From Nonomuraea jiangxiensis (GTDB lineage: Bacteria > Actinomycetota > Actinomycetes > Streptosporangiales > Streptosporangiaceae), in assembly GCF_900099965.1 (NCBI RefSeq), contig NZ_FNDJ01000003.1, positions 558,001-622,000 on the forward strand: 64,000 nt of DNA, written 5' to 3'. A program made the translations under genes and the position numbers. This document shows positions 1-15,524 of the stretch, in pieces. Within the stretch, counting starts at the first letter, position 1; every line of letters begins with the position of its first letter. Under the pieces are notes generated by a model. It was not told where the DNA came from, did no database searches, and was given only the letters and a program-made list of their open reading frames with translations.

Positions 1-212
1 GCGAGAAGCTGCACGAGGAGATGATCGCGCCGGACGACGCCCGCAGGACGCTGTGCCTGGCCGACCGCTACGTGGTCCAGCCCACCATCGCGACCTGGGG
101 CTACGTGCCGCCGTGCGGCGGCGAGCAGATGCCGGACGGCTTCGCCTACCGCTCCGACACCAACGACCGGTGGCTCTCGGTGGAGGAGCTGCGCGAGATG
201 GTGTCCGGCTGA
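1..212 (+). CDS. pseB: UDP-GlcNAc 4,6-dehydratase PseB, C-terminal end (partial)
   Basis: Only the last 70 or so residues are in the window; the gene begins upstream of base 1. The reading frame opens with the EKLHEEM motif, followed by DDARRT and a TNDRWLSVEEL tail, which is the usual ending of PseB/FlaA1-type inverting UDP-GlcNAc 4,6-dehydratases (SDR superfamily). PseB performs the first step of pseudaminic acid synthesis in the cytoplasm. The ATG at base 21 is internal, not the start. The stop codon shares a base with the next start (TGATG), and the next gene is pseC, the following step of the pathway, which supports the call. The catalytic SDR residues are outside the window. Confidence 0.85.
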   Translation, partial: EKLHEEMIAPDDARRTLCLADRYVVQPTIATWGYVPPCGGEQMPDGFAYRSDTNDRWLSVEELREMVSG

Positions 213-1336
213 TGCTCCCCTACGGCCGGCAGTCGATCGCGGACTCCGACGTCGAGGCGGTGGCCGAGGTGCTGCGCGGCGACTGGCTCACGACCGGCCC
301 CGCGGTCGGCGTGTTCGAGGCCGAGCTGTCCCGCTGGACGGGCGGCGTGCCGTGCGTGTCGGTCACCTCGGGCACCGCGGCGCTGCACGTGGCCTACGTG
401 GCGGCGGGGGTGCGGGCCGGTGACGAGGTGGTGACCTCGCCGCTGACGTTCGTGGCCACGGCCGCCACGGCGGCGCTGCTGGGCGCGCGGGTGCGCTTCG
501 CCGACGTGCAGCCCGACACCGGCAACCTCGATCCCGGCGCCGCCGCGGCGCTGGTCACGGCCAGGACGCGGGTGGTCACGGCGGTGGACTACGCCGGCCA
601 TCCGGCCGACTACGACGAGCTGCGCGCGGTCTGCGAGCGCGCCGGCGCGAGGCTCATGAGCGACGCCGCGCACTCGATCGGGGCGGCCTACAAGGACCGG
701 CCGGTGGGCGCGGTGGCGGACCTGACGACGTTCTCGTTCTTCCCGACCAAGACCGTGACGACGGCCGAGGGCGGGGCGGTGGCCGCGGCCGATCCCGGCC
801 TGCACGCGCGGGCCGCCCGCTTCCGCAACCACGGCCTGGTCAGGGAGCCCGCCGAGCAGCGCGACCCCGGCGAGGGCGGCTGGCACCAGGAGGTGCACGA
901 GTTCGGGCTGAACTACCGGCTGCCCGACGTGCTCTGCGCGCTCGGCCTCAGCCAGTTGCGCCGGCTGGAGCGGTTCAGGGCGCGCCGGGCCGAGCTGGTC
1001 GCACGCTACGACCTGCTGCTGCGCGACGTGCCCGGGCTCGGGCTGCCGGCCAGGCGGGCGTACGTGACGCCGAGCTGGCACCTCTATCCCGTCAGGATCC
1101 GCGACGGCCGCCGGCGCGAGGTCTACGAACGCATGCGGGCCGCCGGGATCGGGGTGCAGGTCAACTACCTGCCCGCGTACCGGCATCCGGTGTTCGAGGA
1201 CCTGGGCTACCGGCGCGGGCTCTGCCCGCTGGCGGAGGCGTACTATGCCGAGCAGTTGTCGCTGCCGCTCTTCCCCGCCCTGTCCGACGCCCAGCAGGAC
1301 CGGGTCGTGGAGACGCTGACCGGCATCCTGGCGTGA
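212..1336 (+). CDS. pseC: UDP-4-amino-4,6-dideoxy-N-acetyl-altrosamine transaminase PseC
   Basis: A 374-residue PLP-dependent aminotransferase of the DegT/DnrJ/EryC1 family. It opens with LPYGRQSI and has DWLTTGP, SVTSGTAALHVAY, the SDAAHSIGA motif and FSFFPTKTVTTAEGG, where the Lys is the expected Schiff-base residue. It should aminate the 4-keto sugar made by PseB, the second step to pseudaminic acid. I start it at 212 because that ATG overlaps the pseB stop; the frame is open back to base 53 but that upstream part is pseB read in another frame. The remaining pse genes are not seen downstream, so they probably lie to the left. A minus-strand gene ends 4 bases after the stop. Confidence 0.88.
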   Translation: MLPYGRQSIADSDVEAVAEVLRGDWLTTGPAVGVFEAELSRWTGGVPCVSVTSGTAALHVAYVAAGVRAGDEVVTSPLTFVATAATAALLGARVRFADVQPDTGNLDPGAAAALVTARTRVVTAVDYAGHPADYDELRAVCERAGARLMSDAAHSIGAAYKDRPVGAVADLTTFSFFPTKTVTTAEGGAVAAADPGLHARAARFRNHGLVREPAEQRDPGEGGWHQEVHEFGLNYRLPDVLCALGLSQLRRLERFRARRAELVARYDLLLRDVPGLGLPARRAYVTPSWHLYPVRIRDGRRREVYERMRAAGIGVQVNYLPAYRHPVFEDLGYRRGLCPLAEAYYAEQLSLPLFPALSDAQQDRVVETLTGILA

Positions 1337-1339
1337 CCC

Positions 1340-3274
1340 TCAGCGTCTCCTGCGGACGCCCGGCAGGCGTTTGGCGCCGTCGCCCGGCAGGCGTTCGGCC
1401 ACCAGCAGGCAGCCGTCCTCGGCCCGGTCGACGAGGAAGCGCCGGTCGGCGACGGTCGCTACCGGCCGCTGCCGGGTGCGCACCAGCGGCCTGATGGGCT
1501 TGCCCTGGTCGATGACCACCTCCCAGCACGACACGGTCCCGACGCTCTCGTCGATGTCGGCCAGCGGCACGCGGGCGTGGAAGTCCTGGCCCGCCAGCGC
1601 CACCGGGAAGTACATCTCCTCGCCGTCGCTCCTGCGCCGCAGCCTGAGCACCGGATCGCCGTCGCCCACGTCGGAGATCTCCCCCGAGAACACCAGGTCA
1701 CCGTCATCCACCCGGCACTCGCCGATGACCGCCTGGGCCGTGCGCAGCCGCAGTCCCCAGACGCCGCGGAAATTGCGCACCGGCACCAGCCACACGCCCG
1801 CCCGCCGCCGCGGCGCCGGGATCAGCGGCGGCGACCAGCGCGGCCCGGCCACCCTGCCGTCCAGCTTCAGCCCCCGCCCCCGGAGCTGGACGTACAGGTC
1901 CCAGTGGCCGCGCCGGGCGAGCTGCGCGGCCGAGAGCATCGCCGGGTCGAACGCGAACCTGAACGGGAACGCGTGCTCCGCCACCGGGGCTCCGCCCTCC
2001 CGCTCGACGCTCTCCCAGGTGGGCCTGGTCTCCGCCGCCGAGAGCCGGACGATCTCGCCTGTCTTGCGCTCGCGCATCCACACGCGCACACGCAGCCGGC
2101 GCAGCTCGCCCACGTCGAACCTGCCGACGGCCACCCGGCCCACGCCGGTGAGCACGCCGTCGCGCCAGTCGAGGCTCACCAGGCGGGCCGCCACGCCCAG
2201 CTCGTCGGACACCTCCGACAGGTCCGACGGCAGCCACGGGTGGCGGCCGTACCAGCGCCTGCGCAGGACCCCGGTCGCGCTGACCCGGGGCTGCAGCCGC
2301 CCGTCGCGGGCCTGGCGGAAGGCGTCGGCCAGCTCGTCCAGGCGGCGCCGGTGCAGCAGGTGGACCTGGAGGCGGTGCTCGAACGGGATGCTCTGCCACG
2401 CCTCGCGCGACACGCCGTCGAGATAGCGGACGATCAGGTCGATCAGCCCCGGGTCCGCCGCCGGCCCCATCGCGGCCACGGCCTCCACGGCGACGGCCAT
2501 GTCGATGTCCAGCGTGTCGCGGTCGAAGTCCGGCTTGAGCCTGGGCGCTCCCTTCTCCAGCAGCGCCGACGTCTCCAGCACCGACAGCAGGCGGTCGCGC
2601 AGGTTGCCCGGCTCCAGGCAGCGCTGGGTGATCGAGGTGCCCGGCTCGTCGCGTTGCCGCCAGTGGTAGACGACCCTGGCCAGCACGTCCACGGCACGCG
2701 CTCCGACGTGGGCGGCCATGGCCACCGGCTGGTCCTCGTACATGCGCTCGGGGAAGCTCAGGCCGAGGCCGTCCCAGAAGGAACGGCGGTAGACCTTGTT
2801 CCACAACATGCGGTCGCGGATCAGCAGGGGATGGCGGGTGATGTGGGTGGCCACGATCGGCCGGGCGAAGGCCTGCCGGTGCGCCCACGAGGGCACCAGC
2901 AGGTTGTTGTGCAGGCGCATGACGTTTCCGCAGGCCAGGTCGGAGCCGCTGGACTCCAGCGAGGACACCAGGCGCCGGAACGCGTCGCGCGGGACGGTGT
3001 CGTCACCGTCCACGAACGCCAGATAGCGGCCCCCCGCCCGGCTCACGCCGACGTTGCGGGCCCGGCCGACCCCATGGTTGGGCTGCCTGACGAGGCTGAT
3101 CCGGGGGTCGTCTGCCTGCCTGGCCAGGACCAGGTCGGGACCGCCGTCGGCGCTCCCGTCGTCCACGCAGATCACCTCCAGGTCCGCCAGCGTCTGGGCG
3201 GCGATGGAGTCCAGGCAGGGCCCGATGTACTTCTCGACGTTGTAGAACGGGACGATCACCGAAAGAACCGGCAC
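1340..3274 (-). CDS. Large GT2-family glycosyltransferase
   Basis: A 644-residue protein with a GT-A glycosyltransferase domain in about the first 230 residues: VLSVIVPFYNVEKYI, the nucleotide-binding VDDGSADGG, and FVDGDDTV (the DxD-type metal site). The following roughly 400 residues form an Arg/Trp-rich beta-type region that I do not recognise; such tails occur on polymer-forming wall transferases. It probably adds a sugar to the surface glycan on the cytoplasmic side. I prefer the GTG at 3274 (VPVLSV) because GAGGAG lies five bases upstream; the GTG at 3280 overlaps that ribosome site. It is convergent with pseC. A 15-base direct repeat (CATCGTTGGGKCAGC, 3285-3314) bridges its leader and the stop of the gene upstream. 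Confidence 0.8.
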   Translation of the reverse strand: MPVLSVIVPFYNVEKYIGPCLDSIAAQTLADLEVICVDDGSADGGPDLVLARQADDPRISLVRQPNHGVGRARNVGVSRAGGRYLAFVDGDDTVPRDAFRRLVSSLESSGSDLACGNVMRLHNNLLVPSWAHRQAFARPIVATHITRHPLLIRDRMLWNKVYRRSFWDGLGLSFPERMYEDQPVAMAAHVGARAVDVLARVVYHWRQRDEPGTSITQRCLEPGNLRDRLLSVLETSALLEKGAPRLKPDFDRDTLDIDMAVAVEAVAAMGPAADPGLIDLIVRYLDGVSREAWQSIPFEHRLQVHLLHRRRLDELADAFRQARDGRLQPRVSATGVLRRRWYGRHPWLPSDLSEVSDELGVAARLVSLDWRDGVLTGVGRVAVGRFDVGELRRLRVRVWMRERKTGEIVRLSAAETRPTWESVEREGGAPVAEHAFPFRFAFDPAMLSAAQLARRGHWDLYVQLRGRGLKLDGRVAGPRWSPPLIPAPRRRAGVWLVPVRNFRGVWGLRLRTAQAVIGECRVDDGDLVFSGEISDVGDGDPVLRLRRRSDGEEMYFPVALAGQDFHARVPLADIDESVGTVSCWEVVIDQGKPIRPLVRTRQRPVATVADRRFLVDRAEDGCLLVAERLPGDGAKRLPGVRRRR

Positions 3275-3309
3275 ATGCACTCCTCATCGTTGGGGCAGCC
3301 ATCGTTGGG

Positions 3310-4935
3310 TCAGCCGGACAGCAGGCGTATGACGCGGCGGGCGACCTTGCCGGGGCGGGCCAGGCGGCGGGAGAGGCGGTATCCGAGCGTTCTGCGGTAG
3401 GCGGCGGCCTTGCGCTGGATCCTGCGGAGTTTGGACTTCGCCCTGACCAGCTCGCGTTCCCGGTAGGAGAGCTTGGTCTCCAGGCGCGAGATCCTGGCCA
3501 GCGCGGCGGTGAGCTGGTCGGCCAGGCGGTCACGGGAGCTCAGCAGGTCGCGGTAGGTGGGCGGCTGCTCGGCCAGCTCGGCGGGCTGGCCCAGCTCGGC
3601 GTCGAGCTTGCGGGCCAGGTCGAGGTCGCCGGGGTCGCACGGGCGGCCCGCCATGCCGCACAGCGTCAGCGTGAGCTGGTCGGCCTCCAGTGGCCAGGGC
3701 CACGGGTGGTGGTGCCCGGCCATCTGCAGCCTGACCGCGAAGCGCCACAGGATCCGGCACAGCACGACGCGCGGGTCCGGCGTCGTGGCCGGGGGCGCCG
3801 CCGGGCCGATGGCCGCGAACCGCTCGCCGTCGTAGACCAGGCTGTCGGTCGCGGCCGACACGTCGCCGCCCGCCTCCAGCCAGGCGGCCAGCTCGCCGAG
3901 CAGCTCGCGTACGGTTCGTACGTCCTCGCGGGCGCATGCCTCGACCAGGATCTCCTCGACCACCCGGCCGGCCGGGACAGGGCGCTCGTCCCCGTCGGGC
4001 AGCCGTTTGACGCCTGCCGGGGTGAGCTCGTACAGGGAGGCGCCCTCCTCGATGAGCCCGAGCGGCAGGTCGTCGGGGGCGGTGTCGTACGCGGCCTCGT
4101 GGGGCGGGCGGGTGGCGATGGCCAGCCAGAGGGGGGCGAGCTGCTCGCCCAGGCGGTGCCTGAACACCAGGCGGGTCAGCCGCAGCGGGTCGGCCACCAG
4201 CATCCGGTCGCCGCCCCTGGCGCTCAGCGGGAACGTGATCGCGTCCGGCAGCTCGCGGGCCAGCGCCTCGCGGGACAGCAACGCCCGGGGCGCCTGCCGG
4301 CCGGGATAGGCCGCGTAGCAGCGCCGCACGCTCAGCCCGGCCGACTCCAGCCCGCGATCCAGCGCCTGCGGGCCGCTGGGGTAGCTGGGGTCGAAGCCGT
4401 GCGGCGCCCACTGGTCGTCGCCGCCCTCCCGGTCGGCCGGCCGCGCCTCCTGGAAGCGGTCGACGCCCAGGTCGTTACGCACTCCAAGGACCAGCCGCCC
4501 GCCGTAGGCGACCAGCGCGGCCAGCGCGTCGAGCGACTCGATCCAGGCCGCGGCCGGGGCCTCGGCGGAGTGTGTGCGCAGCAGGCCGTCGAGCGCCAGC
4601 ACCAGGTCGTACGGCTGCTCCGCCTCGAACACCTCCAGCCGACCGCAGAAGACCGCGAGCCCCGGATGCCGCTCGCCGAGCGCGCAGGCGTCGGGGTAGG
4701 AGCGGAGCAGCACGGCGGGGTCGCTGGCCCGCTCGACCACGTCGTCCACCAGCAACTGCGGATGCGGCCCGACCAGCAGCACCCTGCCGCTCTCCGGGAT
4801 CATCCGCCTGACCAGATCCAGTGCCGCGACCCGCCAGTCCGTGACACCCCCCATGGTCGACATGTCGGACCACAGCAGCATCTCCCCGCCGATCAACCGG
4901 ACGTTCTCGGGGGCCTCGCTCGTGCGCGTGTTCAT
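3310..4935 (-). CDS. Methyltransferase-like protein with C-terminal coiled coil
   Basis: A 541-residue protein. An N-terminal part resembles a class I SAM-binding fold (VLLVGPHPQLL as motif I, then PYDLVLALDGLL and GGRLVLGVRN), but the glycine-rich loop is degenerate, so activity is uncertain. The middle is an unrecognised domain. Residues about 465-541 are a charged coiled coil (SRDRLADQL, RISRLETKL, REREL) ending in an Arg-rich tail, a plan common in actinobacterial surface-glycan loci. The start at 4935 gives an ATGA overlap with the stop of the upstream gene, implying translational coupling; the frame is open further upstream but that is the other gene's coding region. A role in modifying or scaffolding glycan synthesis is inferred from context. 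Confidence 0.6.
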   Translation of the reverse strand: MNTRTSEAPENVRLIGGEMLLWSDMSTMGGVTDWRVAALDLVRRMIPESGRVLLVGPHPQLLVDDVVERASDPAVLLRSYPDACALGERHPGLAVFCGRLEVFEAEQPYDLVLALDGLLRTHSAEAPAAAWIESLDALAALVAYGGRLVLGVRNDLGVDRFQEARPADREGGDDQWAPHGFDPSYPSGPQALDRGLESAGLSVRRCYAAYPGRQAPRALLSREALARELPDAITFPLSARGGDRMLVADPLRLTRLVFRHRLGEQLAPLWLAIATRPPHEAAYDTAPDDLPLGLIEEGASLYELTPAGVKRLPDGDERPVPAGRVVEEILVEACAREDVRTVRELLGELAAWLEAGGDVSAATDSLVYDGERFAAIGPAAPPATTPDPRVVLCRILWRFAVRLQMAGHHHPWPWPLEADQLTLTLCGMAGRPCDPGDLDLARKLDAELGQPAELAEQPPTYRDLLSSRDRLADQLTAALARISRLETKLSYRERELVRAKSKLRRIQRKAAAYRRTLGYRLSRRLARPGKVARRVIRLLSG

Positions 4936-5867
4936 GGCCTCGCTCCCAGGGGCGGGCTCGGTCGCCCGGACGCCGTCGCCTTCCCCCGCCGCTCCGGCCG
5001 CTTGAGTCCCGCCGCTCCCCCGCCGGGCGGTGGCGCCCCCACGCGGGTCCGCTTCCATCCGAACATTCGCTGTAGCTCCTCCGGTGTCGCCTGATACTCG
5101 AATCCCAGCTCGCGCCGCGCCACCTCCGCCGCCAGCCCGGGATCGACGCTCGTGCCGTGCATCTCGGGCCAGAGCCGCAGGCGGCGGGCCGTGCCGCCGT
5201 ATTCGGGGCGCTCGTCCTCGTACTGCATCGGGTCTCCGTACACGGCCACCTCGCAGCCCACCGACGCGCCGTAGAACAGCGCGCTGCCGAGCCGGTTGGA
5301 GGCCACCCTGCGGTGGCGCCGCAACTGGACCAACTGCTTGTAGAGGAAATCGCGCCCCTTTCCCTCCCAGCGGGATCCGCGCTCGCCATGACAGATGACC
5401 CGGAATCCCCTCGATTCGTACGCTCGCCGAATGTCCGGATTCGCGAATTCCAGCCAGTAAAGGCAGACGGTGACGGGATCAGTCTCGACATTTCGGATTT
5501 CATCGGCGAGCTGGGCGTGGTCACCGCTGACGGAATACTTCTCCCAGCCGTGGAAGGGATACCAGATCGTACCCTTGCGCTCGCGTACCTTGCCCAGCTC
5601 TGGTTCGAGGTAAAGCAGGTAAATCCAGGGCGCCCCGACCAGGTACTGGCCCCGGCGACCCATCGACCAGCCCCGGCGACGTAGCACGTCGGACCAGAGG
5701 AAGCGGGGATAACCAGGGCTGCACCAATGGTCATTCGGGGGAAATCCATGCAGATAGTTCCATCCATGCTGAAGGAAGCCCTGGATTCGCCGTGGCGCCT
5801 CGTCCGGAAGGCCGCAGTATCTGCCGAGTATGCGAGAGTGCCCGTACCAGTGATTGGATTCGTCCAT
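4932..5867 (-). CDS. Uncharacterised protein of the glycan island, possible GT-B-like transferase
   Basis: A 311-residue protein rich in Trp, Tyr and His that I do not recognise with confidence. Its C-terminal third contains SNRLGSALFYGASVG then VAVYGDP, resembling the nucleotide-binding part of GT-B sugar transferases such as capsule or sialyl-type transferases. In a locus with pseB and pseC, a transferase for a nonulosonic acid is a reasonable guess and no more. The second of two adjacent ATGs (5867) is preferred because GGGGG sits five bases before it, against two bases for the ATG at 5870. It is the first gene of the minus-strand unit 5867-1340 and is divergent from the ACP gene. Confidence 0.5.
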   Translation of the reverse strand: MDESNHWYGHSRILGRYCGLPDEAPRRIQGFLQHGWNYLHGFPPNDHWCSPGYPRFLWSDVLRRRGWSMGRRGQYLVGAPWIYLLYLEPELGKVRERKGTIWYPFHGWEKYSVSGDHAQLADEIRNVETDPVTVCLYWLEFANPDIRRAYESRGFRVICHGERGSRWEGKGRDFLYKQLVQLRRHRRVASNRLGSALFYGASVGCEVAVYGDPMQYEDERPEYGGTARRLRLWPEMHGTSVDPGLAAEVARRELGFEYQATPEELQRMFGWKRTRVGAPPPGGGAAGLKRPERRGKATASGRPSPPLGARP

Positions 5868-6030: not shown

Positions 6031-6279
6031 ATGAGTCATCTCGATCGCCTGCGGGCCGTCTTCCGCATGGCGCTCAACCTTCCCGCCGACGCCGGCGTCG
6101 ACGGCCTCGAATACCGTGCCATCCCCCAGTGGGACTCCCTGGCGCACATGGCGTTGATCGCCGCGATGGAGGACGAGTTCTCCGTCCTGATCGACACCGA
6201 CGAGATGATCGACATGAGCTCGTTCGCGAAAGCGGCCGGGCTGCTGGAGAAGCATGGCATCGGCGCCGCCGCCGTCTGA
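6031..6279 (+). CDS. Acyl carrier protein
   Basis: An 82-residue acidic helical protein with the phosphopantetheine attachment motif QWDSLAHM, in which the Ser of DSL is the modified residue. It should carry an acyl group as a thioester for the enzymes encoded just downstream. The ATG at 6031 has GAGAG nine bases upstream; a GTG at 6025 is an alternative that adds two residues. Its 3' end overlaps the SDR gene by 26 bases, so the five genes from here to 10570 are almost certainly one transcript. It is not next to fatty acid synthase genes, so it looks like a dedicated carrier. Confidence 0.85.
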   Translation: MSHLDRLRAVFRMALNLPADAGVDGLEYRAIPQWDSLAHMALIAAMEDEFSVLIDTDEMIDMSSFAKAAGLLEKHGIGAAAV

Positions 6280-7012
6280 GGCCAGGGTCGCGCTGGTCAC
6301 GGGCTCGACCTCGGGCATCGGGCGGGCCGTCGCGACCAGGCTGGCCGCGACGGGCCACGCCGTGGTGCTGCACGGGCGCGGCGAGGAGCGCACCGCGAAG
6401 GCCGCCGCCGAGGTGGCGGCCGAGACCGGCGGGCAGACCGACTCCGTGCACGGCGACGTGGCCGACGCCGGGGTGGTCGCCGCCATGATGCGGCAGATCT
6501 ACCAGCGGCACGGCCGGCTCGACTCGCTCGTGATCAACGCCGGCGTCCACGCGGCCGGCCTGCTCGGCCTGGTCCACCAGGACACGATCAGCAGGCTCTT
6601 CGAGGTCAACGCCATGGGCGCCACCCACACCCTGCAGGCCGCGCTGCGGCTGCTGCGCCGGGGCACCGACCCCGCCGTGGTCGTCGTCTCCTCGATCATG
6701 GGCCGCGCGGGCGGGCCCGGGCAGACGGTCTACTCCGCCACCAAGGCCGCGGTCCTCGGCCTCACCCTGGCCGCCGCCAAGGAGCTGGGCCCGGCCGGGA
6801 TCAGGGTCAACGCCGTCGCCCCCGGCTACATCCAGACCGACATGCTCTCCACGCTCGACGACGAGGCCCGCGCTGCCACGATCGCGGCGACCCCGCTCGG
6901 CCGCCTGGGCAGGGCCGACGACGTCGCCCGCGCCGCCGCGTTCCTGCTCTCCGCCGAGGCGGGTTTCATCACCGGCCAGGTCATCGGGGTGGACGGCGGG
7001 CTGGTGCTGTGA
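6254..7012 (+). CDS. SDR-family 3-ketoacyl-ACP reductase-like oxidoreductase
   Basis: A 252-residue classical short-chain dehydrogenase. Visible are the cofactor motif TGSTSGIGRA, the NAG-type motif INAGVHAAG, the catalytic Ser in VVSSIMG, the YSATK pair, and the PGYIQTDM and GQVIGVDGG ends typical of FabG-like enzymes. The Arg in HGRGEER suggests NADPH. Sitting between an ACP and an acyl ligase, it may reduce a 3-keto group on the carrier-bound chain, or act on a keto sugar; the sequence does not settle this. It starts inside the ACP gene and its stop shares a base with the next start. Confidence 0.8.
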   Translation: MASAPPPSEARVALVTGSTSGIGRAVATRLAATGHAVVLHGRGEERTAKAAAEVAAETGGQTDSVHGDVADAGVVAAMMRQIYQRHGRLDSLVINAGVHAAGLLGLVHQDTISRLFEVNAMGATHTLQAALRLLRRGTDPAVVVVSSIMGRAGGPGQTVYSATKAAVLGLTLAAAKELGPAGIRVNAVAPGYIQTDMLSTLDDEARAATIAATPLGRLGRADDVARAAAFLLSAEAGFITGQVIGVDGGLVL

Positions 7013-8322
7013 TGTCGTTCCCGCACCCGCAGGCCAGGCTCGTCGTCGCCGGCGAGCCTGGCGGCCTCACCGGCGACGAGCTGTCCGACCACGTCACCCG
7101 CGCCGCGGAGGCCCTGAGCCGGCTGCGCCCCGGGCCGCTGTTCTGCGGGATGCGCAACAACCTCACGTCGGTGTTGCGCTATCTCGCCGCCTGGCGGTCG
7201 GAGCGGCCGATCGCGCTGCTCGATCCCGACCTGTCCGCCGGGGCGCTGGCCGAGCTGGTGGCGCGTTTCCGGCCGGCCGCGCTGCTGGGGTTCACGCACG
7301 CGAGCGACGGCTCCCCGCCGCCGCGCCGGGAGCTGCCGGCGCCCCATCCCGACCTGGCCGTGCTGCTGGCCACGTCGGGTTCGACGGGCAATCCCCGGCT
7401 CGTCCGGCTCTCCCGCCGCGCCGTGCTGGCCAACGCCACCGCCATCGTCACGGCGCTGTCGGTGCGGCCCGGCGACATCTCGCCGACGAGTCTGCCGCTG
7501 CACTACAGCTACGGCCTGTCGGTGCTCAACAGTCATTTGGCGGCGGGCGCGACCGTGGTGCTGACGGAGGCCGGGCTGCTGGAGCGCTCGTTCTGGACCC
7601 ACCTCGACGCTCACCGGTGCACGTCGCTGGCCGCCGTCCCCTACCAGTACGAGATGCTGCGCCGGCTGCGCTTCGACCGCTCCGAGCACCCGGCGCTGAC
7701 CACGCTCACGCAGGCCGGCGGCAGGCTGAGCCCCGAGCTGGTCACGCAGTTCGCCGGGCAGGCCGACCGGTTCTACGTCATGTACGGGCAGACGGAGGCC
7801 ACGGCCCGCATCGCCGTCCTGCCCCCCGGCCTGCTGGCCGCCAAACCCGGCTCCGTCGGGCCGGCGATCCCGGGCGGGCGGCTGTCCGTCGACGACGGGG
7901 AGATCGTCTACCACGGTCCCAACGTCATGATGGGCTACGCCGAGACGGCCGCCGACCTGGCACGGGGTGACGACCTGGGCGGGGTGCTGCGCACCGGCGA
8001 CCTCGGGCGGCTCGACTCCGACGGGTTCCTCTACATCACCGGGCGGCTCAAGCGCATCGCCAAGATCTTCGGTGTCCGGGTCAACCTCGACGACGTGGAG
8101 CTGCTGCTGCGCGACACCGGGCCGGTGGCGGCCACCAGCGGCGACGACCGGGTGACGGTGTGGGCCGAGGGGCTCAACGCTGCCGGGTGCGCGGGGCTGG
8201 CCCGGCGGCTGGGGGCCGAGTTGCGGGTGCACTGGAGCGGGTTCGACGTGCGGGGCATCGACCGCCTGCCGCTGCTGGCCACCGGCAAGGTCGACTACCG
8301 GGCGCTGGAGTCACGTACATGA
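7012..8322 (+). CDS. AMP-forming acyl/aryl ligase (ANL superfamily)
   Basis: A 436-residue adenylating enzyme. It has the phosphate loop ATSGSTGNPR (with Arg where Lys is usual), the MYGQTEATARI motif, TGDLGRLDSDG, the hinge GRLKRIAKIFG and the C-terminal catalytic Lys in LATGKVDYRAL. It is about 100 residues shorter than typical acyl-CoA synthetases, mainly at the N-terminus, a length seen in ligases that load carrier proteins. The expected reaction is ATP-dependent activation of a carboxylic acid and transfer to the neighbouring ACP or to CoA. The ATG at 7012 overlaps the SDR stop (TGATG); a GTG three bases earlier is also possible. Confidence 0.8.
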   Translation: MSFPHPQARLVVAGEPGGLTGDELSDHVTRAAEALSRLRPGPLFCGMRNNLTSVLRYLAAWRSERPIALLDPDLSAGALAELVARFRPAALLGFTHASDGSPPPRRELPAPHPDLAVLLATSGSTGNPRLVRLSRRAVLANATAIVTALSVRPGDISPTSLPLHYSYGLSVLNSHLAAGATVVLTEAGLLERSFWTHLDAHRCTSLAAVPYQYEMLRRLRFDRSEHPALTTLTQAGGRLSPELVTQFAGQADRFYVMYGQTEATARIAVLPPGLLAAKPGSVGPAIPGGRLSVDDGEIVYHGPNVMMGYAETAADLARGDDLGGVLRTGDLGRLDSDGFLYITGRLKRIAKIFGVRVNLDDVELLLRDTGPVAATSGDDRVTVWAEGLNAAGCAGLARRLGAELRVHWSGFDVRGIDRLPLLATGKVDYRALESRT

Positions 8323-9344
8323 CCGTTTTCGGTCTGAAGGCGGCTGAGCGAGAAGCGGTGCTGGTGGAGCGGCTGGCGGAGCTGACCGAGCACCATCGTG
8401 CGGCCTGCCCGCCCTACCGGGGGATTCTCGACGCCATCGGCGCGGCGCCCCCTTACGAGCACGTGGCCGACCTGCCGTGGTTGCCGGTGCGGCTGTTCAA
8501 GACACACGAGTTGCGCAGCGTGCCCGCCGAGCGGGTGTTCCGGGTGCTGACCTCCAGCGGGACCACCGGGCAGCGGCCGAGCCGGGTCCACCTCGACCGG
8601 GAGGCGGCGGCGGCGCAGACGCGGATGCTGGCGGCCACGCTGCGGGTGGTGCTGGGCGAGCGGCGGTTGCCGATGCTGGTCGTCGACAGCCGCTCCGTCG
8701 TGCGCGACCCCGCCCTGAGCGCTCGCGGGGCCGGCGTTCTCGGCATGATGAACCTCGGCCGCGACCACACCTTCGTCCTCGACGAGCAGGGGCGGGTCGA
8801 CGCGGAGGCGGTCAAGTGCTTCCTGGCGCGGCACGGCAGCGAGCGGTTCCTGATCTTCGGGTTCACCTTCATGGTCTGGCTCTACCTGCGCGACCTCGGG
8901 GCCGACCTGGCCCATGGCGTTCTGATCCACTCCGGCGGGTGGAAGCGGCTGGCCGAGCAGGCGGTGGACAACGCCGAGTTCCGGCGGCGGCTGGCCGCTG
9001 AGTGCGGGCTGAGCAGGGTGCACAACTTCTACGGGATGGTCGAGCAGATCGGGACCATCTTCCTGGAGGGGCCCGGCGGGGACGGGCTCTACTGCCCCGA
9101 TTTCGCTGATGTCGTGATTCGTGATCCGGAGACCTGGGCGGAGGCGCCGCCCGGGGAGCCGGGGCTGATCGAGGTGGTCAGCACCTTGCCCACGTCCTAC
9201 CCGGGCCACGTGCTGCTGACCGAGGACCTCGGGGTGGTGCGGGGCGTGGACGACGGCTGCTGGCCGGGCAAGCGGTTCGAGGTGCTCGGCAGGTTGCCGC
9301 GGGCCGAGGCACGGGGTTGCGGCGACACGTTCGGGCGGGGCTGA
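8319..9344 (+). CDS. LuxE-like acyl-protein synthetase
   Basis: A 341-residue protein of the LuxE/PaaK-like adenylating family. It shows PWLPVRLFKTHEL, the adenylate loop RVLTSSGTTGQRPS, FLIFGFTFMVW, HSGGWKRL and HNFYGMVEQIG, all characteristic of LuxE acyl-protein synthetases. In bioluminescent bacteria LuxE activates a fatty acid as acyl-AMP, takes it on a cysteine and passes it to the LuxC reductase, which here is the next gene. No luxAB luciferase genes are present, so the aldehyde has another use. The ATG overlaps the ligase stop (ATGA) and the stop overlaps the luxC-like ATG, showing tight coupling. Confidence 0.82.
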   Translation: MTVFGLKAAEREAVLVERLAELTEHHRAACPPYRGILDAIGAAPPYEHVADLPWLPVRLFKTHELRSVPAERVFRVLTSSGTTGQRPSRVHLDREAAAAQTRMLAATLRVVLGERRLPMLVVDSRSVVRDPALSARGAGVLGMMNLGRDHTFVLDEQGRVDAEAVKCFLARHGSERFLIFGFTFMVWLYLRDLGADLAHGVLIHSGGWKRLAEQAVDNAEFRRRLAAECGLSRVHNFYGMVEQIGTIFLEGPGGDGLYCPDFADVVIRDPETWAEAPPGEPGLIEVVSTLPTSYPGHVLLTEDLGVVRGVDDGCWPGKRFEVLGRLPRAEARGCGDTFGRG

Positions 9345-10570
9345 TGGAAGACGGTCCCGCGCTGGAGGTGAGGTTCCCGGCCGCCACGGCCGTGCTCGTG
9401 GCCGGGCTGCTGGCGCAGCTGGGTGACGGCGAGCCTCTGCTGGTGGGTGACGAGCGGGTGCGCGCGTTCCTGGCGGCGTTCGGCAGGCGGCTGCTGCGGC
9501 CGGCGTCGGCGCGGCGGCATCCCGAGCTGGGATCGCTCGGCTTCTTCCTGCGGCCCAGCGAGCTGACCCGCACGGTCGAAGCGCTCGGCGGCGCGCACAT
9601 CCGCGTCCCGCGCGGCCTGGTCTTCCACATCCCGCCCGCCAACGTGGACACGGTCTTCGTCTACTCCTGGGCCCTGTCGGCCCTGATGGGCAACCGCAAC
9701 GTCGTACGCCTCTCGCCCCGCGCGGGCGTGGTCACCGAGGTCATCCTCGACACGCTGCACGAGGCGCTGGCCGAGGCCGACCCGGTGATCGGCGCCACGC
9801 AGCGGATCGTCTCCTACGACCGCTCCGACGCCGTCACCGCCGCGCTCTCGGCGGCCTGCGACCTGCGGGTGGTGTGGGGCGGGGACGGCAGCGTGCGGGA
9901 GATCCGGCGGCATCCGCTCGCCCCGCACGCCAGGGACCTGACCTTCCCCGACCGTTCCTCGTTCGCCGTGGTGCGGGCGGCGGCCTGGCTGGGCGCGCCG
10001 CGGGCGGCGCGGGTCGGCGCGGCCGAGGGGTTCGTCAACGACGGCTACTGGTTCGACCAGGCCGCCTGCTCGTCGCCGCGGACCGTGTTCTGGGTGGGGA
10101 CCCACGGCGAGTGCGACAGCGCCAGGGGCGACTTCACCGATCACGTGGAGCGGGTGGTGGCCGGGCGGGGGTGGACGGTGGACGCGGCGATGGCCGTGGA
10201 GAAGCGGGTCGCCACCTACGGGCTGGCCGTCGACGGGGTGGCCGAGCGGATCGAGTTCCGGGGCAACGCGCTGGCCAGCGTGACGCTGACCGACCCGGCC
10301 GCCGCGCCCCGGCGGTGGCTGGGGGCCGGGACGTTCGCGCACGCCAGGCTCGGCGGGCTGGCCGAGCTGGTCCCGCTGGTCGAGCGGCGGGACCAGACGA
10401 TGACGCATTTCGGGTTCGGCAGGGACGAGCTGGAGGAGCTGGCCAGGGGGCTGGCCGGGCGCGGGGTCGACCGCATGGTGCCGATGGGCGGCGCGTTGAG
10501 CTTTCACCGGGTGTGGGACGGGGTGGATCTGCCGGTCGAGTTCACACGTCTGGTGACCGTGACCGGCTGA
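9344..10570 (+). CDS. LuxC-like acyl-CoA/acyl-protein reductase
   Basis: A 408-residue protein of the LuxC family related to aldehyde dehydrogenases. It has the signature FDQAACSSPR around the catalytic Cys (residue 242), VFHIPPANVDTVF, and VVWGGDGSV. LuxC enzymes reduce an acyl thioester to an aldehyde with NADPH. With the LuxE-like partner in a one-base overlap it forms a complete acyl reductase pair. Placement between glycan genes suggests the aldehyde is used for a lipid-modified or branched sugar, or a lipid carrier modification, but this is inference. The next gene starts 19 bases on and may belong to the same transcript. Confidence 0.83.
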   Translation: MEDGPALEVRFPAATAVLVAGLLAQLGDGEPLLVGDERVRAFLAAFGRRLLRPASARRHPELGSLGFFLRPSELTRTVEALGGAHIRVPRGLVFHIPPANVDTVFVYSWALSALMGNRNVVRLSPRAGVVTEVILDTLHEALAEADPVIGATQRIVSYDRSDAVTAALSAACDLRVVWGGDGSVREIRRHPLAPHARDLTFPDRSSFAVVRAAAWLGAPRAARVGAAEGFVNDGYWFDQAACSSPRTVFWVGTHGECDSARGDFTDHVERVVAGRGWTVDAAMAVEKRVATYGLAVDGVAERIEFRGNALASVTLTDPAAAPRRWLGAGTFAHARLGGLAELVPLVERRDQTMTHFGFGRDELEELARGLAGRGVDRMVPMGGALSFHRVWDGVDLPVEFTRLVTVTG

Positions 10571-10589: not shown

Positions 10590-12719
10590 ATGACGTTCGT
10601 GACGCGCCTGCTCGCCCGTCCTGTGGCGAAGGGGTGGGGCCGCTCCGGGTGGGTGCCCGCCGCGCTGGTGTTCGCCGGGGCGGTGGCCGTGTTCCTGTGG
10701 TGCGGGGTATCCGTTCGCGACGTGGCCGCGTTCGTGGCGTACGTCGGGGGTGCGGTGGCGCTGCCCGGGACGCTGGTGTGGCGGGCGCTGGCCGGGGGCG
10801 GGCGGTCGCCGGCGGAGGACGTCGCGGCGGGGCTGGCCCTGGGATACGCGATCGAGGTGCTCGCCTACATTCCGGCGCGGGCGGTGGGGGCGCCGCTGCT
10901 GGTCCTGGTGCCGCCGGTGGTGGTGATCGGGATCTTCGTCGCGGTGCCCGGGTTGCGGCGGCACTGGCGGGGGGACCGCTCCGGGGAGCGGATGCCGGGG
11001 TGGTGTGCCTGGGCGCTCGCGGGCGTGGTCGGCTATCTGATCATCTGGAGCACGATCCACCTGTATCGGGTGCCGGTGACCGCCGCGTACGTGGACATGC
11101 CGTATCACCTGGCGCTGGTCGGCGAGGTCAAGAACCACATGCCGCCCACGATGCCGACCGTGCTGGGCGAGCGGCTGGCGTATCACTGGTTCGTCTACGC
11201 CGACCTGGCCGCCACCAGCTGGGTCACCGGGATCGAGCCCGTGACGTTGGTCTACCGGCTGTCCACGTTGCCGATGACGGCGGCCATGGTGGTGCTGGTG
11301 GCGGCGATCGGGAGGCGGGCCGGGGGGTGGTGGGGGGCCGGGGTCGCGGCGGTCGGGGTCGCGTACTTCCTGTTCGGGCCGGTGCTGCACGAGGACGTGG
11401 TCTTTCCGACGCGCTCGATGTTCACGGCCTGGGCCAGTCCGACGCAGACGTTCGGGGCCCTGCTGTTCGCTCCCGTGGTGCTGCTGCTCGTCGGCGGGCG
11501 GCGGCCCTGGGCGGTGCTGGGGGTGCTGCTGCTGGCGCTGACCGGGGCCAAGGCCACCTTCCTGCCGCTGCTGCTGGCGGGGCTGGTGGTGGTGATGGCG
11601 GTGCAGGCGGTGCGGCGGGGGCCGTGGCGGGAGTGGGTGGGGCCGGCGGCGATGACGTCGGGGTGCCTGCTGATCGCGCACGTGGTGGTGTTCGGGCGGG
11701 GGGCGCACGGGACGGTCGTCGCGCCGTTCGCGACCATGCGGGACTTGTGGGGGGTGGTGGCGGGGGTCGGGATGCCGGAGCTGGCCTCCGTGTCGGCTGT
11801 GCCGCTGCTGGTGCTGACCGTCGTGCACCTGTTCTGCCTGGCGTGCGTGTGGGGCGGCGTGGCCGGGCTGGGGAGGCGGGTGCTGGAGCCGCCCGTGCTG
11901 CTGTTGCTGGGGATGGGGCTGGCCGGGATCGGCGCGGTGGTGGTGCTGGGGCATCCGGCGGCCTCCCAGCTGTACTTCCTCGAAGGGGTGCGGCCCTACC
12001 TGTCGATCGCGGCCGTGTGCGGGGCGCTGGCGGCGTGGCGGCCGGCGGTGCCGGGGGGCATGGTGGCGCTGGGAGCGGGGGGCGCCCTGCTGGCCTGGGT
12101 GGTCGAGGTGCCCGGGGGGCCGCTGGTCAGGGTCGTGGTGCCGTACCTGGTGCTCGGGGTGGCTGCGGCGGTGGTGGCGTGGCGGCGCCGGCACGTGCTG
12201 GCCGTGGTGGCGTTGCTGGCGGGGTACGCCGTGCCCGCCTCCGCGTGGGAGGTGGTGGGGCATGTCCTGCCGGATGAGGACAGGCGGGAGCGGCTGATTC
12301 CCGCGGGGGCGCGGGCGGCGGGCCGGTGGTTGCGCGAGCACTCCGCGCCCGGCGACGTCGTGGCCACCGACCTGCACTGCCGGTATCCGCAGTGGCGGAC
12401 GTGCGACAGCAGGCATCACTGGGTGTCGGGGTTCAGTGAGCGGCGGGTGCTGGTGGAGGGGTGGGCGTACGCCGAGAGCACGCAGTCGCGGACCGAGCTG
12501 TTCGTGACCTCCTATCTCGGGGTGCCGTTCGCGGACCCGGCGCGGCTGGCGGCGAACGACGCGGTGTTCCGGGCGCCGTCGGCGGAGAACGTCCAACACC
12601 TCGCCCAGAAATATGGCGTTAAATGGCTTTTCACCGGCCTAAATCCGAAATTGGGGAGATTTGCTCAATTGCGGTTCCGGAACGGCACCTCCGCCGTTTA
12701 TCGGATCCCCGAACGGTAA
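10590..12719 (+). CDS. Large polytopic membrane protein, GT-C glycosyltransferase-like
   Basis: A 709-residue protein with roughly 14-16 hydrophobic segments across the first 550 residues and a soluble C-terminal part (APGDVVATDLHCRYPQW, WAYAESTQSRTELF). An early loop carries AAYVDMPYHLAL and AYHWFVYADLA, acidic and His residues of the kind found in the first external loop of GT-C enzymes that use polyprenyl-phosphate sugars. That points to a wall or membrane glycosyltransferase working outside the membrane. No family is recognised with certainty. It follows the LuxC-like gene by 19 bases. The last 120 bases are less GC-rich than the rest, as is the gap that follows. Confidence 0.6.
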   Translation: MTFVTRLLARPVAKGWGRSGWVPAALVFAGAVAVFLWCGVSVRDVAAFVAYVGGAVALPGTLVWRALAGGGRSPAEDVAAGLALGYAIEVLAYIPARAVGAPLLVLVPPVVVIGIFVAVPGLRRHWRGDRSGERMPGWCAWALAGVVGYLIIWSTIHLYRVPVTAAYVDMPYHLALVGEVKNHMPPTMPTVLGERLAYHWFVYADLAATSWVTGIEPVTLVYRLSTLPMTAAMVVLVAAIGRRAGGWWGAGVAAVGVAYFLFGPVLHEDVVFPTRSMFTAWASPTQTFGALLFAPVVLLLVGGRRPWAVLGVLLLALTGAKATFLPLLLAGLVVVMAVQAVRRGPWREWVGPAAMTSGCLLIAHVVVFGRGAHGTVVAPFATMRDLWGVVAGVGMPELASVSAVPLLVLTVVHLFCLACVWGGVAGLGRRVLEPPVLLLLGMGLAGIGAVVVLGHPAASQLYFLEGVRPYLSIAAVCGALAAWRPAVPGGMVALGAGGALLAWVVEVPGGPLVRVVVPYLVLGVAAAVVAWRRRHVLAVVALLAGYAVPASAWEVVGHVLPDEDRRERLIPAGARAAGRWLREHSAPGDVVATDLHCRYPQWRTCDSRHHWVSGFSERRVLVEGWAYAESTQSRTELFVTSYLGVPFADPARLAANDAVFRAPSAENVQHLAQKYGVKWLFTGLNPKLGRFAQLRFRNGTSAVYRIPER

Positions 12720-12827
12720 AGATCTTTCACTCCCATGTAATCTTGCGGAAAAGTGGCACGCGCCTCGCTGGACGTCCCCTGCACCATTTCCATGGACCCA
12801 CGGCCACGAACAAAATCAGGGGATTCT

Positions 12828-14039
12828 ATGGACACGCGTGCCGCCACGGCGCCGAGCCCCCGCATCCTCGACATCGGCGCCGGACCGGCGAGCGTCGACA
12901 TCGTCATCCCCGTGCTCAACGAGGAGCGTGCCCTGCCCGGCTGCGTACGCACGCTGACCGCCTTCCTCGACACCGCCTTCCCGCTCCCCTGGCGCATCAC
13001 GATCGTGGACAACGGCAGCACCGACGCCACCTGGCCGGTCGCCGCCGGGCTGGCCAGGCAGTTCGAACGGGTGCACGCCCGCAGGCTCGACATCCGCGGC
13101 CGGGGCGCGGCCCTGCGCGCGGCGTGGCAGGACAGCCCGGCCGGCATCGTCGCGTACATGGACGTCGATCTCTCCACCGACCTCGGCGCCCTGTTCCCGC
13201 TGGTGGCGTCGGTGGCCAGCGGGCATTCCGAGCTCGCCATCGGCACCCGGCTGGCGCACGGCGCGCGTACCCGCCGCTCGCTGCGCCGCGAGGTGGTCTC
13301 GCGCGGCTACAACGCCCTGCTCAGGTACGGCTTCGGAGCGCGCTTCACCGACGCCCAGTGCGGCTTCAAGGCGGCCAGGACCGACGTGGTCAGGCCGTTG
13401 ATGGCGAAGGTCGAGGACGACTCGTGGTTCTTCGACACCGAGTTGCTCCTGCTGGCCGAGCACAACGGCCTGCGTGTGCACGAGGTGCCCGTCGACTGGA
13501 TCGAGGACGTCGACTCCCGGGTGAGGATCGTCCGTACGGCGTTCGACGACCTGAAGGGGCTGGCCAGGGTCGCCTGGGCATTGGCGATGGGCCGAGGCCG
13601 GGTCGAGGTGGCCAGGCCGGAGCCCACGCCCACGCATCCGGACGCCGTGGTCACCCGGCCCCGGGCGGTGCCGGTGACGAGATTCGTATCGTTCGCCGTG
13701 ATCGGCGCCATTTCCGCAATCCTGTACGCGCTCATCTACCTTCCGCTACGGGGCAGCTGGTCGCCGGAAATGACCAATCTCGGGGCGCTCGTCCTGGCCG
13801 GGATCATCAACATCGAGGCGAACCGCCGGTGGACCTTCAAAAGGCGCACCACCCCGCATTTCCGTGCGGCGATGCTCTTCATGGTCAATTTCCCGCTCAC
13901 CACCCTGGCCGTGCATGCCGTGCCCCCGGGCGCCGGGCGGGCGGCGGAGGTGGGCGCGGTCGTGGCCACGTACTGCCTGCTCACCCTGATCCACTTCGCC
14001 GCCCTGGACCGCTGGGTCCTCTCCCGTACGAGGTACTGA
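12828..14039 (+). CDS. GT2 glycosyltransferase fused to a GtrA-like membrane domain
   Basis: A 403-residue, two-part protein. Residues about 20-250 are a DPM1-like GT2 domain with VDIVIPVLNEERAL, TIVDNGSTDAT and the YMDVDLSTDL metal site; this type makes polyprenyl-phosphate sugars. Residues about 285-403 contain four hydrophobic segments and NIEANRRWTFKRR, the hallmark of GtrA flippase-like proteins. The fusion suggests one protein that makes and helps move a lipid-linked sugar, which the neighbouring GT-C-like proteins could use. The ATG at 12828 is chosen over an in-frame ATG at 12753 because AGGGG lies five bases before it and the frame upstream lacks family similarity. Confidence 0.8.
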   Translation: MDTRAATAPSPRILDIGAGPASVDIVIPVLNEERALPGCVRTLTAFLDTAFPLPWRITIVDNGSTDATWPVAAGLARQFERVHARRLDIRGRGAALRAAWQDSPAGIVAYMDVDLSTDLGALFPLVASVASGHSELAIGTRLAHGARTRRSLRREVVSRGYNALLRYGFGARFTDAQCGFKAARTDVVRPLMAKVEDDSWFFDTELLLLAEHNGLRVHEVPVDWIEDVDSRVRIVRTAFDDLKGLARVAWALAMGRGRVEVARPEPTPTHPDAVVTRPRAVPVTRFVSFAVIGAISAILYALIYLPLRGSWSPEMTNLGALVLAGIINIEANRRWTFKRRTTPHFRAAMLFMVNFPLTTLAVHAVPPGAGRAAEVGAVVATYCLLTLIHFAALDRWVLSRTRY

Positions 14040-14044
14040 CATCG

Positions 14045-14743
14045 ATGGACAGCTCTGACATCCGCCACCTGGTCGCGCTGGAGGACAGCCACTGGTGGTA
14101 CCGCGAGCGCCGGGCCATCCTGCGCAGGGAGCTGCGCGAGCTGGGCCGGCCCGGGCGGGCGCTGGACGTCGGCGCGGCGGGCGGCGGGAACACGCGGGTG
14201 CTGGTCGAGGCGGGCTGGGACGCGACGGCGACCGACCACTCCCAGGCGGCGGTGGACCTGGCCAGGGAGCGCGGGCTCAAGGCCGTGCGGGCGGACGCCC
14301 GGGCGCTGCCGTTCGAGCCGGGCAGCATGGACCTGGTGACCGCGTTCGACGTGCTGGAGCACATTCGCGAGGACCACCTGGTCGCCGAGGAGATCGCCAG
14401 GGTGCTGGCGCCGGGCGGCCATGCCCTGATCGCGGTGCCGTGCGACATGGCGCTGTGGTCCGCCCACGACGACGCCGTCGGCCATGTACGCCGCTACGGC
14501 CGCGAGTCGCTGACCATCGTCGTGGAGAAGGCCGGGCTGAAGGTCGATCGCGTCTGGAGCTGGAACGTGCTGCTCCGCCCGCTCGTGGAGCTGCACCGGC
14601 GCCGCTCCCAGGGCAGTGACCTGCGCAGAACGCCATTCCTGGTGAACGCGGGCCTGTCGGCCGTCGTACGGGCCGAGCGATATCTGCCGGTTAAATCGCT
14701 CAAAGGCGTGACATTGTTCCTACGTGCTCGTCTCGGTAGATAA
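14045..14743 (+). CDS. Class I SAM-dependent methyltransferase
   Basis: A 232-residue methyltransferase with motif I LDVGAAGGGNTRVL, the acidic ATDHS segment, DARALPFEPGSMDLV and the FDVLEHI and LAPGGHALIAVP motifs of ubiquinone/menaquinone-like methyltransferases. The N-terminal segment LVALEDSHWWYRERR is common in enzymes of surface-sugar loci. The ATG at 14045 lies five bases after the stop of the GT2-GtrA gene, so the two are co-transcribed. The substrate is not evident; a sugar of the same glycan is likely. Confidence 0.75.
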   Translation: MDSSDIRHLVALEDSHWWYRERRAILRRELRELGRPGRALDVGAAGGGNTRVLVEAGWDATATDHSQAAVDLARERGLKAVRADARALPFEPGSMDLVTAFDVLEHIREDHLVAEEIARVLAPGGHALIAVPCDMALWSAHDDAVGHVRRYGRESLTIVVEKAGLKVDRVWSWNVLLRPLVELHRRRSQGSDLRRTPFLVNAGLSAVVRAERYLPVKSLKGVTLFLRARLGR

Positions 14744-14808
14744 CAGTGTTCAGAACGAGATGTAAAGCGCGCACCTAACGGGATGGTCGTGGCTTTAAGC
14801 TATAGCCC

Positions 14809-15492: not shown

Positions 15493-15524
15493 CGGATCCC
15501 TCGGTAAATCCGGGATCGTGAACC

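Follow-up and report, generated by a model that had tools for sequence, protein, structure and literature searches.

What genes related to the fatty acid reductase of luminous bacteria contribute to a pseudaminic acid (Pse) glycan island is the question raised by a 64,000-nucleotide stretch of the Nonomuraea jiangxiensis genome (the window; contig NZ_FNDJ01000003.1, positions 558001-622000, in a genome of 11.81 Mb). The set in question, here called the module, comprises five genes, encoding an acyl carrier protein (ACP), a short-chain dehydrogenase/reductase (SDR), a ligase of the ANL family and relatives of LuxE and LuxC. Published work has placed genes of this kind in flagellar glycan islands and interpreted them as genes for fatty acids or liposugars. 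We propose that the module builds a short hydroxyacyl group, bound as a thioester to its own ACP, from which a sugar N-acyltransferase (here PseH) would move the acyl group to an amino sugar, a proposal to which we give an even chance. Judged from the partner genes described below, the product of the module is probably an acyl-ACP for amino-sugar N-acylation; the identification of the acyl group as a C4 dihydroxybutanoyl is tentative.

Composition of the module

The earlier note on this DNA had described the five genes as a single overlapping run with intact active-site motifs, and our analysis bears out both points. All five open reading frames (ORFs) were found open and on the same strand (Table 1), with successive overlaps of 26, 1, 4 and 1 bases in the order ACP, SDR, ANL, LuxE, LuxC, and with the motifs DSL (ACP), GSTSGIG and YSATK (SDR), TSGSTG (ANL ligase), TSSGTTG (LuxE) and ACSSP (LuxC) intact. 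We sampled 345 genomes of the order (Streptosporangiales), calling LuxE at E < 1e-30 and PseI by a score over its cut-off, and fetched 57 stretches, 53 of which held a module-type LuxE. All five gene models were matched in 48 of these 53 loci, indicating that the arrangement is not a product of chance.

LuxE and LuxC matched PF04443 at 146.4 bits and PF05893 at 87.9 bits (Pfam gathering cut-offs 24.9 and 21, respectively), and for both the best solved match was the LuxC-LuxE entry 7xc6 (its LuxE, E 2.6e-25 by profile search; chain A for LuxC, E 0.0047). The C-terminal cysteine of lux-operon LuxE aligns with a cysteine of the window LuxE (C360 of alignment A2), and the active-site cysteine of lux-operon LuxC with that of ACSSP in the window LuxC (alignment A3). 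By their profile scores, the two are LuxE- and LuxC-family proteins but not members of a lux operon, because the NCBIfam lux-operon equivalog cut-offs were not reached (LuxC 27.4 vs 750 bits, NF052251; LuxE 61.7 vs 550 bits, NF052244). The module thus shares both families and the catalytic cysteines with the luxCDE fatty acid reductase (7xc6), but its LuxE and LuxC are only 25% and 21% identical to those of a lux reporter, it adds an ACP, an SDR and an ANL ligase, and it lies in a glycan context.

Of the remaining three proteins, the ANL ligase has an oxalate-CoA ligase as its closest solved relative (E 2.8e-23), and the SDR fell under the cut-off for each of the 25 best NCBIfam models, including the FabG equivalog TIGR01830 (214.7 bits, cut-off 297.75). 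The ACP matched no model in Pfam or NCBIfam and solved ACPs weakly (best E 0.0057); its identity to places annotated as ACP in plasmid records was 39-49% for the nearer ones (Ponticoccus, Deinococcus, Rhizobium) and 27-33% for the others. The closest named relative met was Nonomuraea gerenzanensis, with identities of 86.7% for LuxE, 92.2% for ACP and 84.5% for LuxC. The record holding these module-type genes, which fall within 5 kb (NZ_LT559118.1, 11.85 Mb), is listed as a plasmid in PLSDB and is, given its size, probably a chromosome.

Linkage to Pse genes within the order

We identified LuxE in 44 of the 54 genomes of the genus, and in 11 genomes of the order outside it. PseI was found over its cut-off in 66 genomes, comprising all 44 LuxE-positive members of the genus, ten of the 11 LuxE-positive genomes outside it (the eleventh, G270, has a partial LuxE match whose type is unsure), and 12 genomes that lack the module, among them G168 at 63% completeness. 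Module carriers accordingly make up 54/66 of the PseI-positive and 1/279 of the PseI-negative genomes (Fisher 4e-50, a value overstated by the relatedness of the genomes), and the module is closely tied to Pse genes in this order. The linkage is also physical, as the earlier note had supposed in placing the module within a Pse island: pse genes precede it in the window, and PseB, PseC or PseF lies within about 10 kb in 46 of the 53 module-type loci, the other seven being four loci on contigs of less than 5 kb and three with PseI 13-20 kb away. A second, different LuxC/LuxE pair, 24-29% identical to that of the module, was seen in one genome that also carries the module (locus L040, genome G302).

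Relatives in other bacteria and their partner genes

We scanned contigs of 84,980 species with a six-row LuxE alignment, and found at least 560 relatives, of which the best 80 are counted here; 27 of these are Amycolatopsis loci, and counts per locus therefore overstate diversity. An acyltransferase was taken to be near the module if it scored at least 60 bits and lay within 1.3 kb, both limits having been set after the match list was seen. The full set of five was detected in 73 of the 80 relatives, and a sugar N-acyltransferase was near in 60, being LpxA-like in 40, PseH-like in 14 and NeuD-like in 6. Acyltransferase matches are about 80-fold denser near the module (65 in 197 kb) than beyond 3 kb from it (3 in 710 kb). 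A DegT aminotransferase lay within 7 kb in 66 of the 80; counted by label, DegT was present in 21 of 36 groups and the LpxA-like gene in 13 of 36. AcpS was near in 6/80 loci by clustering and 7/80 by profile. The usual pairing of the module with genes for a sugar aminotransferase and for a sugar N-acyltransferase points to an acyl-ACP as its product.

The Amycolatopsis-type loci combine the LpxA-like gene with DegT and a Gfo/Idh/MocA gene, a set found in 19 of the 27 Amycolatopsis loci. Among solved structures, the LpxA-like protein comes closest to LpxA enzymes that depend on acyl-ACP, and a Gfo/Idh/MocA representative from Catellatospora was best matched, below cut-off, by UDP-N-acetylglucosamine (UDP-GlcNAc) 3-dehydrogenase. 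From these assignments, the three genes could make a 3-amino sugar and acylate it from the ACP.

The earlier note had named the finding of the five genes mainly outside glycan loci as evidence against a role in glycan synthesis; we found most of the relatives examined among sugar-biosynthesis genes, with few exceptions. When 144 of the 149 ORFs neighbouring the module in 22 loci (14 without DegT) were tallied by Pfam family, the five omitted being long, the leading families were hexapeptide, epimerase, DegT, sugar transferase and AcpS, and since sugar-type families top the tally, many of these loci are glycan loci. Among the neighbours identified in a Mycobacterium locus (L145), there were no sugar genes.

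Relatives were found in the Actinomycetota, Acidobacteriota, Chloroflexota, Deinococcota and Pseudomonadota. Among Gammaproteobacteria this type of LuxE is rare, with 3 carriers in 321 genomes drawn, the centre included. In one gammaproteobacterial locus PseH, ACP, SDR, ANL, LuxE and LuxC are contiguous, as described for Aeromonas. Five further loci included four with an acyltransferase near (NeuD 2, PseH 2). No relative was confirmed in viral contigs scanned with the LuxE protein.

LpxA-like and NeuD-like proteins have the hexapeptide fold, and PseH belongs to the GNAT proteins. We built a LuxE tree of 74 rows, with Amycolatopsis thinned from 27 to 6 and the order represented by 8 rows plus the window; these nine took the PseH label from their context and not from distance, and loci without a detected partner received a label of their own. 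Its well supported branches force at least six changes for the LpxA label, at least six for NeuD and at least two for PseH, with gains and losses not distinguished. Three acyltransferase families of two folds thus replace each other beside the same five genes, which is to be expected if the module delivers a common donor.

Among the plasmid-borne relatives, that of Ponticoccus alexandrii (L098:12674-19572) has a PseH-like gene directly after luxE, with luxC inverted about 2 kb away. That of Rhizobium anhuiense T24 (L099:8218-20401) holds LuxE, LuxC, ACP, an AMP ligase, DegT, a split transketolase, a hexapeptide acyltransferase, a GMC oxidoreductase and FabZ. LuxE and ACP matches occur in nine other Rhizobium records.

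PseH lineages and the module

PseH and PseI trees were compared over the same 29 loci, 11 of them module-free and 18 with the module. In the PseH tree, the module-free rows all lie on one side of a branch (support 55/68, or 97/94 for the ten without G019), whereas in the PseI tree they are scattered (4 changes), and a single module-free clade is rejected by the approximately unbiased test (p-AU 0.0001). In the module-free genome G198, a comparison picked after the trees were seen, PseI groups with module carriers (87/91), and PseH with the module-free g58 genomes (100/99; alternative p-AU 4e-5). In these trees, PseH phylogeny follows the presence of the module and PseI phylogeny does not, which suggests that module carriers have a PseH of another specificity. 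The simpler idea that PseH is present only with the module was rejected: PseH was missing from 9-kb stretches in 7 of the 11 module-free loci, as if lost together with the module, but a genome-wide search found it elsewhere in all seven, and it is the lineage of PseH, not its presence, that follows the module.

A proposed route to the acyl donor

In the Pse pathway, PseH works on the 4-amino group from which N7 of Pse derives. We infer the substrate, the order of steps, the acyl group and the site on the sugar as follows. The substrate would be a dicarboxylic acid of four carbons, for instance malate, both ends of which are put to use. LuxE would activate one carboxylate and pass it to LuxC, which would reduce it to the aldehyde, and the SDR would reduce the aldehyde to the alcohol, giving a hydroxymethyl end. 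The ANL ligase would activate the other carboxylate and charge the ACP with it, either before the reduction or later, to yield for example 2,4- or 3,4-dihydroxybutanoyl-ACP, from which PseH would transfer the acyl group to the 4-amino group, the future N7 of Pse. With two carboxylates in the substrate, there would be a job for each of the two acid-activating enzymes, for the acyl reductase, for the SDR and for the carrier.

A related logic is seen in the tetronate pathway of Vibrio cholerae O1, which starts from malate and uses the LuxC-like RfbN, the iron-type alcohol dehydrogenase RfbM, a hexapeptide acyltransferase and one ligase. Nonomuraea differs from these counterparts in having an SDR, an extra LuxE and PseH. 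The tetronate genes VC0248-VC0252 carry the names rfb/wbe KLMNO, the tetronate sits on the amino group of perosamine, and the ligase RfbL works with the carrier RfbK and 2,4-dihydroxybutanoic acid (PMC3441752, PMC12208996). Compared by description only, the two systems share a dedicated carrier protein and ligase, and would share the N-acylation of a 4-amino sugar.

The nature of the acyl group

An alternative is that the module makes a long fatty acyl group or fatty aldehyde, attached to the glycan or its lipid carrier. LuxE and LuxC of luminous bacteria, to which the window proteins are related through 7xc6, act on long chains, and the LpxA-like partners of 40 of the 80 loci belong to a family that usually uses long 3-hydroxyacyl-ACP, but the five genes include no ketosynthase, and the relatives of PseH and NeuD are known as acetyltransferases. 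Such a liposugar has been suggested in papers on Aeromonas (PMC7874193) and enterobacteria (PMC4875605).

The Aeromonas work also provides chemical data. The Group II flagella glycosylation island, described from 98 strains, carries orf1-orf3, luxE and luxC beside pseBCFGHI, and in A. piscicola AH-3 five such ORFs come after pseH; its Pse derivative has a mass of 376.14 Da, still 376 in an fgi-1 deletion, and its glycan consists otherwise of Hex (hexose), HexNAc (N-acetylhexosamine), phosphate, methyl and a 102 Da moiety (PMC7874193). We calculate 316.127 for Pse5Ac7Ac and 376.148 for Pse5Ac with C4H6O3, the mass of Pse bearing a dihydroxybutanoyl group and close to the Aeromonas value, whereas a long acyl group would bring the mass to at least 400 Da (400.22 for octanoyl), and the listed components leave no room for a long chain on Pse. 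On these masses and on the partner genes, which point to acyl-ACP, a long chain is unlikely, and the proposal of the earlier note that an aldehyde or long chain decorates the sugar or its lipid carrier is doubtful.

The same masses bear on a second alternative, in which the sugar amine receives a 3- or 4-hydroxybutanoyl group from the ACP of the module, and succinate, handled at its two ends in the same way, is the source of the 4-hydroxybutanoyl group. Pse with amide-linked 4-hydroxybutyric acid and amino sugars with 3-hydroxybutyric acid have both been described, a 4-hydroxybutanoyl Qui3N (3-amino-3,6-dideoxyglucose) occurs in Idiomarina abyssalis, and the SDR is FabG-like; we nevertheless regard this variant as improbable, since the AH-3 mass fits 376.148 and not 360.153.

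The suggestion of the earlier note that the module is an undescribed system is not supported. The same five gene types are found in Aeromonas Group II, in the same listed order and beside pse genes, and were published with the liposugar suggestion (PMC7874193), and the enterobacterial flagellin glycosylation islands contain, by description only, the same protein types (Acp, FabG, CaiC, LuxE and LuxC; PMC4875605). The Nonomuraea locus differs in that pseH is about 10 kb away, whereas the five ORFs directly follow pseH in Aeromonas, and in that luxC is followed by a 709-aa protein, where Aeromonas has the glycosyltransferase fgi-1; the Aeromonas glycan sits on flagellin. In the open-access literature searched, we found no account of the five-gene set in actinobacteria, nor of the acyl-donor reading, the wide spread or the exchange of partners. 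The five-gene set itself is already known; what is new is a proposed function that agrees with the comparison of its relatives.

Variant loci and aldehyde chemistry

A third alternative is that the LuxC aldehyde is itself the reactant, feeding carbon-carbon bond formation or amination (by a transketolase or other thiamine diphosphate (ThDP) enzyme, and by DegT) to give an amino-polyol or branched unit. The Rhizobium plasmid locus and a related set in Dickeya (PMC7575072) join LuxE and LuxC to a transketolase pair and DegT/VioA, and in three Vibrionaceae loci they occur with a NeuB-like enzyme and with a ThDP enzyme, the latter Pfam-tested in one. No such enzyme was found among the ten window proteins tested, other Pse-type loci not having been searched for one, and we consider this explanation very unlikely for the Nonomuraea module.

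The Vibrionaceae loci came from 247 genomes of the Aliivibrio family, which were searched through LuxC for a tetronate locus like that of V. cholerae; the three places examined proved to be a different variant, and no V. cholerae sequence was identified. These places (L193, L194, L195) contain LuxE, LuxC, ACP and ANL. They add a ThDP enzyme, a FabA-like protein and a NeuB-family synthase, three assignments that were Pfam-tested in L195 only, and no module-type SDR was found in them. This variant is possibly devoted to an aldehyde-based building of a new acidic sugar. The Shewanella genes sfmABCDE were considered as the same set and rejected, since they differ in encoding a NeuB domain, a thiamine pyrophosphate (TPP) enzyme, an oxoacyl-ACP reductase, a methyltransferase and an ATP-grasp protein.

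Strength of the acyl-donor reading

Several observations weigh against the acyl-donor reading. Twenty of the 80 relatives have no such acyltransferase near; L106, L109, L111 and L157 among them are cut off by the end of a contig, a different hexapeptide protein immediately precedes the module in L112 and L167, and the neighbours tested in L104 (with a sugar transferase), L108, L114, L145 (with Thy1), L163 and L165 include no acyltransferase. The long 3-hydroxyacyl chains that LpxA enzymes normally carry would fit a lipid, an O-methylglyceroyl group has the same mass as a dihydroxybutanoyl, and the presence of other enzymes with the core in the Vibrionaceae variant indicates that the core can serve other chemistry. 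As to PseH, the whole split in its tree is weakly supported, the G198 comparison was chosen post hoc, the residues separating the two PseH groups are few and not telling, and PseH occurs also without the module. Only 2 of 55 loci of the order have PseH at a distance of 1.3 kb or less from the module.

In its widest form, the acyl-donor reading would make the module a transferable unit of acyl synthesis, one end of a C4 diacid being reduced and the other taken up by the ACP, that has been joined repeatedly to LpxA-like, NeuD-like and PseH (GNAT) acyltransferases; Nonomuraea would have a wall glycan with tetronyl-Pse, and the 376 Da flagellin sugar of Aeromonas would be explained. This combination is speculative, and doubtful as a whole. 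Should the genes make short hydroxyacyl groups for sugar amines and not fatty acids or liposugars, the Aeromonas Pse derivative and the 102 Da moiety could be tested directly, and a chemistry could be predicted for hundreds of loci, many of which are actinobacterial.

Genes of the surrounding island

The edge of the window cuts the locus, with the 5' part of pseB, and pseF, pseG, pseH and pseI, just upstream. PseH lies at contig positions 553867-554385 and the ACP gene begins at 564031, and pseH is therefore not directly upstream of the ACP gene. PseB and PseI exceed their NCBIfam cut-offs, while PseG (120.3 vs 153.55 bits) and PseH (75.8 vs 93.1 bits) are, like PseC, below theirs; PseC, PseG and PseH each best match their own model, and PseF was matched only as a cytidylyltransferase (PF02348). 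Allowing for the scores below cut-off of PseC, PseG and PseH, the Pse pathway may be complete.

Table 1. Genes of the island within the window, with positions counted from the first nucleotide of the window.
Feature	Position	Strand	Evidence
pseB, 3' end only	1..212	+	TIGR03589, 493 bits (cut-off 407.75)
pseC aminotransferase, start inferred from profile match	212..1336	+	TIGR03588, 411.8 bits (cut-off 423.5)
Family 2 glycosyltransferase with long C-terminal part	1340..3280	-	PF00535, 115 bits; 38/53 order loci
X582, no family match in models tested	3310..5058	-	Conserved in Pse loci with and without module
X331, predicted GT-B-fold protein, candidate glycosyltransferase	4932..5867	-	No family match; structure model
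ACP, acyl carrier protein, 82 aa, DSL at residue 35	6031..6279	+	ORF, motif, identity to annotated ACPs
FabG-like SDR, 252 aa, proposed aldehyde-to-alcohol reducer	6254..7012	+	PF13561, 200 bits
ANL-family ligase, 436 aa, proposed acyl-ACP synthetase	7012..8322	+	PF00501, 132 bits
LuxE-like acyl-protein synthetase, 341 aa, C-terminal RGC Cys	8319..9344	+	PF04443
LuxC-like acyl reductase, 408 aa, ACSSP Cys	9344..10570	+	PF05893
709-aa protein after luxC, GT-C-like in the earlier note	10590..12719	+	No Pfam/NCBIfam match; 33/53 order loci

X331 adjoins the module in at least 31 of the 53 order loci, a lower bound that depends on ORF calling. Its structure model (predicted local distance difference test, pLDDT, 73.8) matches UDP-GlcNAc 2-epimerases and TagF (best Z 10.4, root-mean-square deviation 3.9 over 219 residues), and on this model X331 is a candidate glycosyltransferase of the Pse glycan. 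An assignment of function from the fold was rejected, since the GT-B fold is common to UDP-GlcNAc 2-epimerases, TagF and others, and is not telling alone. Downstream of luxC, the island seems to extend through positions 10590-16982, encoding the 709-aa protein, a family 2 glycosyltransferase with a GtrA domain, a methyltransferase, a polysaccharide deacetylase and a 485-aa protein without a Pfam match, and the order of these genes is kept in many loci of the genus.

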